Assembly (NCBI GenBank): GCA_021836865.1
Contig: JAKBHH010000001.1
Location: forward strand, 1-64,000
Origin: Acidobacteriota bacterium
GTDB taxonomy: Bacteria; Acidobacteriota; Terriglobia; Terriglobales; Acidobacteriaceae
Direction: 5' to 3'
DNA length: 64,000 nt
Position numbers and translations under genes: made by a program. The notes beneath the pieces were generated by a model that made no database searches, was not told the DNA's origin, and worked only from the letters and a program-made list of their open reading frames with translations. Below are positions 21,080 to 42,061 of this stretch, in pieces. The first letter of the stretch is position 1, and every line of letters begins with the position of its first letter.

Positions 21080-21154
21080 GCGGGAGTAGCTCAGTGGTAG
21101 AGCATCGCCTTGCCAAGGCGAGGGTCGCGAGTTCAAATCTCGTCTCCCGCTCCA
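21080..21154 (+). tRNA. tRNA-Gly (GCC)
   Basis: The cloverleaf is complete: a GCGGGAG acceptor arm pairs with CTCCCGC, the D-arm is AGCTCAGTGGTAGAGC, the anticodon loop reads TTGCCAA with GCC, and the T-arm contains GTTCAAATC. CCA is encoded at the 3' end. Confidence 0.97.
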
Positions 21155-21229: not shown

Positions 21230-21304
21230 GGCGCGGTACCCAAGTGGTAAGGGAGAGGTCTGCAAAACCTTTATGCGCCGGTTCGATCCCGGCCCGCGCC
21301 TCCA
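21230..21304 (+). tRNA. tRNA-Cys (GCA)
   Basis: The acceptor stem GGCGCGG pairs with CCGCGCC, the anticodon loop reads CTGCAAA with GCA, the T-arm contains GTTCGATCC, and CCA is encoded. The antisense strand of this tRNA translates into a peptide starting ARAGIEPAHKGFADL, a well-known spurious protein that is not annotated here. Confidence 0.97.
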
Positions 21305-40122: not shown

Positions 40123-40950
40123 ATGGAATTGATCCGGAACGACGCAAGTTCGCAACCGCCCATCCAGTCGCCTGCGCAAGCATCGCCGATCACCGCGATC
40201 GCGCCGGCCTGGCACACCGCGCTGCTCATCGCCGGCATCGTCGCGCTCTCCATCTCCGGCTCATCCCGCCTCGCCAGGGCGCAGGGAGTCCACAATCGTT
40301 TCGCCACCTACGCCGCTACCGCCGTCATGGAACTGCTCATGCTCGCGTGGGTCGTTTGGGGGCTGCGCATTCGTCGCGTTCCGTTGCGCAGCCTCTTCGG
40401 CAATCTCCGTGGCGGCATGCGCTCCTTCTTTCTCGATCTCGGCGTTGCCTTCGCCTTCTGGCTGGTGGCGCTCCTGGTTCTCGGCACGGCCGGCATCGCG
40501 TGGTCCCGCGTGGAATCGCTGCTCACCCCTCGTAGCGGCGCGGCACAGGCCGCGCAGGGCTCGCCGCTTTCCCCCGCGCGGAATGAGGCTTCGCGCGCGT
40601 TGATGCAGCTTGCGCCCGCCAACGCACGAGAAGCCGCTGCATGGGCCGCGCTCTGCCTGCTCGTCGGCCTCGTGGAAGAGTCCGTCTTCCGCGGATATCT
40701 TCAGCGCCAGTTCACCGCGTGGGCGCGCGGCAACGTCGCCATCGGCATCGTTTTCTCCGCACTCCTGTTCGGCGCTGCTCATGGATATCAGGGCTTGCGC
40801 AGCATGGTTCTGCTTGCCGTATTCGGCGTCCTCTTCAGTCTGCTTGCCGTCTCGCGGCGCAGTTTGCGCCCATGCATTCTCGCGCATAGCTGGAACGATT
40901 TGTTCGCTGGACTTGCCTTCGGCATCCTGAAGCTGCATCACATTCTCTAA
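40123..40950 (+). CDS. CPBP family intramembrane metalloprotease (CAAX-like)
   Basis: The 275-residue protein has about seven hydrophobic segments and the three CPBP/Abi motifs: EE-x3-R in LVEESVFRGYLQ near residue 185, then FGAAHGYQG, and a final HSWNDLFAGL near the C terminus. It is a glutamic/zinc-type membrane protease, potentially acting on peptides or in bacteriocin self-immunity. AAGAGG lies upstream of the ATG. The actual substrate is unknown. Confidence 0.87.
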   Translation: MELIRNDASSQPPIQSPAQASPITAIAPAWHTALLIAGIVALSISGSSRLARAQGVHNRFATYAATAVMELLMLAWVVWGLRIRRVPLRSLFGNLRGGMRSFFLDLGVAFAFWLVALLVLGTAGIAWSRVESLLTPRSGAAQAAQGSPLSPARNEASRALMQLAPANAREAAAWAALCLLVGLVEESVFRGYLQRQFTAWARGNVAIGIVFSALLFGAAHGYQGLRSMVLLAVFGVLFSLLAVSRRSLRPCILAHSWNDLFAGLAFGILKLHHIL

Positions 40951-41023
40951 TTCCGTTGTGGCATGCGCGCTTCATCCATAGAAAAATTGTTGCCACTTTT
41001 TCCACTCCATCGTCGTTTTTTTC

Positions 41024-41052
41024 TTGACACTGAGCATTCGTGAATCTATACA
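41024..41052 (+). promoter_or_regulatory. Sigma-70-type promoter of the Lys/Ala peptide gene
   Basis: TTGACA at 41024-41029, a 17-base spacer and TATACA at 41047-41052 form a near-consensus housekeeping promoter, the best -35/-10 pair noticed in this window. The expected start near 41059 gives a leader of about 56 bases. Confidence 0.85.
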
Positions 41053-41114
41053 TTCTTCAACTGCAATTCTCATTGCAGCATCGATGCAACCCATCGAAAA
41101 GGGAGAATAGGCAA

Positions 41115-41186
41115 ATGGCAACGAAGAAAGCAGCCAAGAAGGCACCCGCGAAGAAGGCCGCGAAGAAAGCCGCGAAGAAGAAGTAA
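41115..41186 (+). CDS. 23-residue histone H1-like Lys/Ala/Pro peptide
   Basis: The gene reads MATKKAAKKAPAKKAAKKAA followed by KKK and stop. It is a pure AAKK/APAKK repeat like the C-terminal tails of histone H1 and bacterial H1-like proteins, so it probably binds DNA or RNA non-specifically, neutralising charge. A strong promoter lies 56 bases before the RNA leader's end, GGGAGA precedes the ATG, and a 15-bp perfect terminator follows 23 bases after the stop. Such a complete, isolated unit makes expression very likely, despite being far below normal gene-calling limits. Not a fragment of a longer frame. Confidence 0.8.
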   Translation: MATKKAAKKAPAKKAAKKAAKKK

Positions 41187-41209
41187 CGGGTCAACCAACC
41201 AAAAGGCAA

Positions 41210-41249
41210 CACTTCGGGGGACGCACCAAGCGTCCCCCGAAGTGTTTTT
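41210..41249 (+). terminator. Strong rho-independent terminator
   Basis: A perfect 15-bp stem (41210-41224 with 41230-41244) with a 5-base loop is followed by TTTTT. Confidence 0.95.
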
Positions 41250-41329: not shown

Positions 41330-42061
41330 ATGACACGCCGCCGATGGATCGCCGAACACTGGGATGAAGCCACTGCAACACTCATGGGCGCACAGGCTGA
41401 GCACATGGCCCGCGTGCTCCGCGCACAGCCCGGCATGGAGGCTGACGTCGTCGCCGGCGGTCACGTCTTCCACGCCGTCGTTGCCGCCGTAACGCCCGGC
41501 GAAGTCCGCTTCAATCTGCTCACCGAGCTCGATGCCCAGGCTGCTCTACCCGTAACTTTGGTCATGGCCATCTACAAGTTCGATCACATGGAGTGGGCCA
41601 TCGAGAAGGCCACCGAGTTGGGCGTCGGCGTCATTGCGCCCGTCATCGCGCGCCGCACAGAAAAGCATCTCGCCCTCGCCGCAGACAAGCGCGTCGAGCG
41701 CTGGCGGCGCCTCGCGCATGAGGCCGCCCAGCAGTCGCGCCGCTCCGATGTCCCTCTCATCTACGATCCCGTCCCGCTTACCGCACGTGCCTCTGTCGCG
41801 CCAGGCGGCGCGCGCCTCGTGCTCGCGGAGCAGGAGCGCTCCACAACCCTGCGCAACGCTCTCGATGAAATTCTTCGCACGGCACAGTCTGAGTTGCCCT
41901 CGCTTGAGCTCGCCATAGGTCCTGAGGGCGGATGGGCTCCGAATGAAGAGGCGCTCTTTGACGCCAACGGATGGCGCGCCGTCTCGCTCGGCCCACGCAT
42001 CCTGCGCGCGGAAACAGCCGCCATTGCGGCCCTGTCCGTTGTCGCGTCGTTGCTGGAGTAG
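41330..42061 (+). CDS. rsmE: 16S rRNA (uracil-1498-N3)-methyltransferase
   Basis: RsmE methylates U1498 of 16S rRNA using S-adenosylmethionine. The 243-residue protein begins RRRWIAEHWDEATATLMGAQAEHMARVLR (the PUA-like N-terminal region), then has KATELGVGVIAPVIARRTEK, RWRRLAHEAAQQSRR and the SPOUT-knot signature LAIGPEGGWAPNEE near residue 197 with LGPRILRAETAAIAAL at the end. GGAGA precedes the ATG. It is separate from the preceding peptide gene, which has its own terminator. Confidence 0.95.
   Translation: MTRRRWIAEHWDEATATLMGAQAEHMARVLRAQPGMEADVVAGGHVFHAVVAAVTPGEVRFNLLTELDAQAALPVTLVMAIYKFDHMEWAIEKATELGVGVIAPVIARRTEKHLALAADKRVERWRRLAHEAAQQSRRSDVPLIYDPVPLTARASVAPGGARLVLAEQERSTTLRNALDEILRTAQSELPSLELAIGPEGGWAPNEEALFDANGWRAVSLGPRILRAETAAIAALSVVASLLE

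Follow-up and report, generated by a model that had tools for sequence, protein, structure and literature searches.

Organisation of the Locus

The window, meaning the whole stretch of 64,000 nucleotides that was analysed, carries on its + strand a short unit lying between two genes of the same strand, one coding for a CPBP/Rce1-like membrane protease upstream (40123–40950; PF02517, 73.7 bits) and one for RsmE, of the 16S rRNA m3U1498 methyltransferase family, downstream (41330–42061; PF04452, 151.9 bits; TIGR00046, 150.7 bits against a cut-off of 41). The unit opens with a -35 box, TTGACA (41024–41029), kept in the loci of its own genus, and, after a 17-nt spacer, a -10 box, TATACA(T) (41047–41052), which reads TATACAT or TATACCT in 30 own-genus loci, all fetched by a DNA match to the whole unit. 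A mechanical promoter scan missed this promoter because it demands T as the sixth -10 base. The T-rich tract just upstream (41013–41023), present in the own-genus loci examined, may act as an UP element, and transcription probably starts at about 41058–41060. Further ahead of the promoter, a TTGTTGCCACTTTTTCCAC block (40987–41005) is conserved in own-genus loci; the TTGTTGCC within it complements the GGCAAC boxes of the RNA, which may be a coincidence.

The leader contains two hairpins, CTGCAAT-TCTC-ATTGCAG (41061–41078) and TCGATG-CAACC-CATCGA (41081–41097), followed by a Shine-Dalgarno sequence, AAGGGAG (41099–41105), whose GGGAG is also retained in RNAs devoid of the open reading frame (ORF). 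The ORF itself (41115–41186, from the ATG at 41115–41117 to the TAA at 41184–41186) encodes the 23 residues MATKKAAKKAPAKKAAKKAAKKK. Behind it lie a conserved 3' linker (41187–41212) with CAACCAACC and AAGGCAAC, enriched in GGCAA and common to the ORF-less RNAs, and a 3' hairpin with an intrinsic-terminator-like U-run (41209–41249; stem 41209–41224/41230–41245, TTTTT 41245–41249). The core of this hairpin, GGGGACGC/GCGTCCCC, occurs a single time in the source genome, and the same hairpin covaries in ORF-less RNAs. For the transcript 41053–41249, the folding energy is -70.1 kcal/mol, compared with -46.9 in shuffled sequences (z = -5.66). A preliminary description of this DNA had claimed a full transcription unit with promoter, ribosome binding site, 24-codon gene and terminator, and every element lies where it had been placed; absent from that picture were the two leader hairpins and the conserved 3' linker, both present in the sequence. 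Conserved promoter, leader and 3' hairpin argue for an independent, compact transcription unit. Two tRNA genes lie elsewhere on the + strand of the window (21080–21151 and 21230–21301), and two tRNAs were all that an Rfam scan of the window returned.

With regard to the leader, an alignment was made of 64 of 66 leaders, L105 and L134 being omitted as another type and L075 excluded. Across these 64 distinct sequences, 94.2% of the cells of both hairpins are paired and 28 cells are changed on both sides, compared with 8.1 in shuffles, while slid versions of the helices yield 0 to 11. Most of this covariation signal is carried by hairpin 1 (98.4% of cells paired, 26 changed on both sides); hairpin 2 (89.1%, two changed on both sides) is broken in 8 to 10 sequences at four of its six pairs. 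Leader conservation can partly serve mRNA stability or translation.

Conservation, Distribution and Neighbourhood

A search of related genomes for the conserved unit, which the preliminary description had proposed as a check, showed that 54 of 60 genomes, counting the source genome, have a DNA match at E ≤ 0.001. Long matches spanning the unit were found in 32 of 36 own-genus genomes (again with the source), and repeat-like matches only in G007, G019, G021 and G033. Judged by these searches and folds, the match frequency and the folding of the unit are far beyond chance. All 30 own-genus loci examined have an intact Lys-rich ORF of 20–30 aa whose product starts with MATKK.

Beyond the genus, GTDB was searched (one genome per species, 84,980 species) with a coding-free pattern consisting of TTGACA, 16–18 nt, TATACAT, 38–58 nt and GGAGAATAG, which yielded at least 116 loci and is no census. 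Among the 116 matches listed, 111 show a Lys-rich ORF of 9–30 aa at the next ATG (110 recognised automatically, with L134 added; the frame of L072 extends beyond its record), two have an ORF interrupted by N (L085 and L127), one is an ORF-less copy (L062, a contig of G330) and two are unrelated (L114 and L155). A second, coding pattern (GGAGAATAG, 0–8 nt, ATG, Lys-Lys at codons 4–5) was applied class-wide to 399 genomes and matched 116, with none for the reversed control. Matches fell in 101 of 146 genomes of the unit's own family (f1), including 17 of 17 of its genus, in 2 of 7 of family f2 and in 11 of 19 of family f5; the two matches in the 227 genomes of other families are both unrelated proteins (188 and 94 aa). 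The 45 unmatched f1 genomes belong to the genera g22 (13), g24 (12), g30 (7) and g19 (9), plus four others, so that 28 of 37 g19 genomes have the ORF by this pattern. The pattern undercounts, since two of the nine unmatched g19 genomes (G676 and G787) carry the unit with a variant Shine-Dalgarno sequence, two f2 genomes (G038 and G039) carry it with another N-terminus, and G405 with MATAKK. A looser phylum pattern proved unspecific outside Acidobacteriaceae, matching 45 of 395 genomes mostly at plainly unrelated sites, and was excluded from the counts.

In 17 of 17 own-genus genomes, the locus is single-copy and vertically inherited, and plasmid sequences gave no match to the unit. From this distribution, the unit is a gene of long standing, present as a rule once per genome, in Acidobacteriaceae and in related families of Terriglobia. 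Two f2 genomes, G036 (L042:1488) and G041 (L040:1370), have, beside the main unit, one more short unit for a Lys peptide, in which the leader differs and AAAGGAGGAAAT precedes the ATG.

In Acidobacteriaceae, rsmE lies directly downstream of the unit. In other lineages, the closest gene downstream is rmuC, in convergent orientation, with rsmE kilobases away: L105 shows the order CPBP protease, unit, convergent RmuC, UvrD/PD-(D/E)XK helicase, rsmE and DnaJ, and the unit likewise faces RmuC in L052 and L153, whose peptide is MAAKKKAKKKR. On its other side, a VWA-domain protein is encoded in L052 and in L099, a locus of f2. The g19 unit is not close to rsmE and adjoins a thiolase gene (L246). Such varied neighbourhoods point to an old locus, of which rsmE is no fixed partner.

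The ORF and Its Peptide

Coding analysis covered the complete ORFs without N from L001–L030 and L048–L163, that is, 140 ORFs (104 distinct) encoding 67 distinct peptides. The pN/pS ratio is 0.21 for ORFs of 24 codons (22 distinct, 231 pairs) and ranges from 0.07 to 0.36 in five other length classes; it reaches 0.55 in the 23-codon class and 1.34 in the 25-codon class (four ORFs), probably because ungapped comparison mixes repeat registers. Third positions account for 1630 of 2337 changes in the 24-codon class, one 23-aa peptide is encoded by 12 different DNA sequences, and ORF length varies by whole codons. Among the 104 distinct ORFs, the stop is TAA in 68 and TAG in 36, and no other stop is used. 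Codon 2 is GCA in 100 of the 100 ORFs with Ala there, compared with 228 of the 607 Ala codons at internal positions, a bias consistent with tuning of the translation start. The Lys/Ala/Pro micropeptide gene previously proposed is thus borne out as a 23-aa ORF that is under selection for its protein sequence, two length classes deviating.

The 67 peptides are built from K, A, T, P, S, G, V, H and R, plus one internal M; none contains an acidic residue, F, Y, W, L or I, or a hydrophobic stretch. The shortest, found in some lineages, are MPKKKKKKR, MKKAKKKKKR, MAAKKKAKKKR and MATKKKAAKKKKKH. Read in frame, the 23-aa peptide matches no Pfam or PHROG family and has a single, chance-level match in NCBIfam; there is no match among PDB sequences. 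With the HC2 profile PF07382, a 29-aa relative scores 11 bits, short of the cut-off of 40. The earlier statement that the peptide resembles only the tail of histone H1-like proteins holds, the likeness being one of composition, beyond which a histone-like function is unsupported. By its charge, the peptide may be expected to bind nucleic acid; this role rests on its composition and on the DNA binding of KPAA peptides reported in PMC9239181.

Longer Lys-rich proteins also occur. The source genome encodes a 219-aa protein (L038:938–1597, in G000:C72) with an acidic N-terminus and a long Lys/Ala tail, which is HC2-like (35.4 bits against a cut-off of 40) and has similar proteins in other genera. 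In g30, the Lys-rich DNA matches of L351 and L353 lie inside long frames, the N-terminal part of which we take to resemble RsfS, suggesting RsfS with a Lys/Ala tail.

RNAs without the ORF

Ahead of rsmE, the promoter, hairpin 1, GGGAG, GGCAA boxes and the 3' hairpin occur without a Lys ORF in five genomes of g22 and six of g24. By DNA search, 27 of 28 genomes of g22 carry the unit, as do 16 of 19 of g24, and two of the three unmatched members of the latter (G282 and G312) have it at rsmE; a Lys-rich ORF was seen in none of the 43 g22 and g24 units read. GGGAGCGCAGGCAAACGC is present in 27 of 27 g22 units, the linker of which has a mean pairwise identity of 0.888 (26 of 27 rows), compared with 0.472 at third positions and 0.403 at fourfold sites of g22 rsmE, and with unit flanks that are unalignable. 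Conservation is weaker in g24, whose linker reaches 0.623 over 12 rows, with fourfold sites at 0.431. The rows left out of these linker identities are L278 (g22) and L308 and L309 (g24), all three of which escaped the regular expression, together with L314 and L315. The structural alignments were made without the near copies L281 and L284 (A1) and without L311, L314 and L315 (A2).

In the g22 stems, 34 cells are changed on both sides, compared with a shuffled mean of 7.7, and none of 500 shuffles reached as high. Helices 1 and 2 contain U-G and G-U pairs when read on the + strand, which would be A-C mismatches on the other, so that the RNA presumably has the sequence of the + strand. GGCAA occurs 78 times against 14.1 in dinucleotide shuffles in g22, 40 against 9.8 in g24 and 76 against 26.2 in coding 3' linkers. 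In the predicted folds of both g22 and g24, GGCAAA sits in a hairpin loop; the g22 stem bearing it lacks covariation because it hardly varies.

Another short frame in the g22 RNAs is conceivable, as NTG stands ahead of GGAGCG in 24 of 27 rows (TCG in three). In 9 of the 27, a 1-nt change in linker length alters its value modulo 3 and breaks any frame running through the linker. Relocation of the peptide in the ORF-less genera was addressed by a pattern search of 53 genomes, in which 30 matched loci were read; those of g22 and g24 are either proteins of greater length or short frames with no relation to the peptide, and the unit accompanies none of them.

The coding and ORF-less forms were connected by a covariance model, R1, built from 25 ORF-less g22 RNAs alone. 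It found the window unit at E 8.8e-14 among 70 sources and, at 1.0e-12, as the sole locus of the source genome; under strict filters, 77 of the 199 genomes in the order gave a match at E ≤ 0.001, all these E-values being rough. The model further revealed RNAs without the ORF in g30 (G531, G524 and G830) and in one g19 genome (G288), in which the position of the ATG reads AAG. Without its ORF, the window RNA aligns with these g30 and g19 RNAs and shares with them GGGAGAATAG, CAACCAACC (with G531) and AAGGCAAC. Three g30 genomes (G500, G513 and G435) have neither promoter nor hairpin of the unit beside rsmE. In the rsmE protein tree, a gene tree rooted at midpoint, g30 falls outside the clade that unites g22, g24 and the single g19 row; since, in addition, most g19 genomes have the ORF, this reading counts at least three losses. 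In no fewer than three lineages, the RNA would accordingly have outlasted the ORF, which would make the latter dispensable on an evolutionary time scale. The ORF is probably ancestral, because the outlying families f2 and f5 have it and ORF-like stretches remain in some g24 copies. The RNA thus seems to have been retained under selection apart from the ORF, and its persistence in several lineages after loss of the peptide suggests that it has a function of its own.

Function of the Locus

We consider it quite likely that the locus is a dual-function RNA gene of a new family, with an optional polycationic micropeptide. A strong sigma-70-type promoter would drive a transcript of about 190 nt comprising the two leader hairpins, the linker with its GGCAA boxes and the 3' hairpin terminator. 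This RNA skeleton, kept where the ORF is gone, would most likely be a trans-acting regulator, the GGCAA boxes of which could, hypothetically, pair with mRNAs or hold a protein; in the source genome and most related ones, the linker would also contain a translated ORF for a polycation of 9–30 aa. All 29 genomes tested, from both coding and ORF-less lineages, encode Hfq, which makes a trans-acting sRNA possible, and the U-run, only three U long in many g22 RNAs, argues against a classical Hfq-type sRNA tail. Most Acidobacteriaceae tested have two to four Hfq-domain frames, one canonical and the others weak; a single one was found in both g19 genomes and four of the five g24 genomes tested.

That the unit is a plain mRNA for the micropeptide, with hairpins and terminator stabilising the message and the ORF-less copies as relics, we regard as unlikely. 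It would account for the strong coding signal and for the exclusive GCA at codon 2. Relics, however, would hardly keep a linker 89% identical where fourfold sites are at 40%, in a unit present in nearly all g22 genomes, nor a structure held by compensatory changes, and the ORF-less state recurs in g30 and g19.

A more speculative reading, to which we give little credence, is that the micropeptide serves as a built-in chaperone to the RNA from which it is made; a polycation of minimal size, with as few as nine residues, it would coat or anneal that RNA. Where the peptide was lost, the RNA would have taken over by acquiring helices in which the former Shine-Dalgarno site is buried, and the g22 and g24 RNAs would display GGCAAA in a hairpin loop. 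If true, an RNA–peptide pair would have been caught several times in passing from messenger to non-coding RNA.

It is very improbable that the unit is a non-coding small RNA everywhere and its ORF an accident of a purine-rich linker: retention of the RNA without the ORF and the GGCAA boxes would fit, but the dominance of third-position changes, the whole-codon length changes, the single peptide specified by 12 DNA sequences and the restricted composition of the 67 peptides would not. The preliminary description had opposed peptide and small RNA as alternatives. Its codon repeat is indeed conserved; their mutual exclusion does not stand, as the RNA is conserved too, even without the repeat.

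Even less probable is that the locus encodes a small toxin or an antimicrobial peptide, with or without a type I antitoxin, as the very short and highly cationic product might suggest; the hydrophobic membrane peptide of type I toxins is not seen among the 67 sequences, and a single-copy, vertically inherited locus is unlike mobile toxin pairs. Finally, a leader peptide and attenuator for rsmE, as a short ORF followed by a terminator just ahead of that gene in Acidobacteriaceae might suggest, is scarcely credible and is refuted by the position of the unit, which holds no fixed place before the same downstream gene (rmuC and thiolase neighbours), barring a lysyl- or alanyl-tRNA-dependent readthrough into rsmE.

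Significance and Comparison with Known Systems

To our knowledge, dual-function RNAs are known from few model species, with the gain and loss of their ORFs mostly guessed, and Acidobacteriota is a phylum with little RNA biology. The unit offers this phylum a conserved RNA with a strong predicted promoter, and peptides of 9–16 residues apparently under coding selection. A single orthologous gene can be traced across an order in its coding and ORF-less states, and with at least three losses, these states provide natural mutants that separate both functions. The literature search, the coverage of which leaves out most subscription journals and all bioRxiv preprints, found no paper on the unit. 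As far as the searches go, the family, the nine-residue minimum and the repeated ORF loss are new; the kind of RNA is already known, since at least 10% of bacterial sRNAs are estimated to hold a coding ORF, according to PMC5521070.

Acido-1 RNA (RF01686) is likewise a candidate non-coding RNA of Acidobacteria, as PMC2864571 presents it, but it gave no match at E-values up to 5 (four loci) or up to 2 (three loci), and at lax E-values no Rfam family came near its gathering score in these seven unit loci. In composition, the peptide resembles HC2, histone H1-like Lys-Ala repeat proteins and the KPAA tail of AlgP; those, however, are long tails of larger proteins, whereas the window peptide stands without a Pfam match. 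SgrS/SgrT is closer in design, as a short independent transcript with a small ORF, and PMC8672173 describes a conserved base-pairing part with an sgrT ORF in a subset of species only, a pattern shared by the unit, where the RNA part is conserved and the ORF is absent from several lineages. It differs in having no sequence relation to the unit (Rfam scans, no credible match), and SgrT acts on a sugar transporter, whereas the peptide of the unit is a polycation and the target of its RNA only hypothetical. VcdRP of Vibrio cholerae is likewise dual, its RNA combining a 29-aa ORF with a base-pairing part and a terminator; there, the ORF and the RNA part both persist in every species tested, unlike the unit presented here, which appears to have lost its ORF repeatedly.
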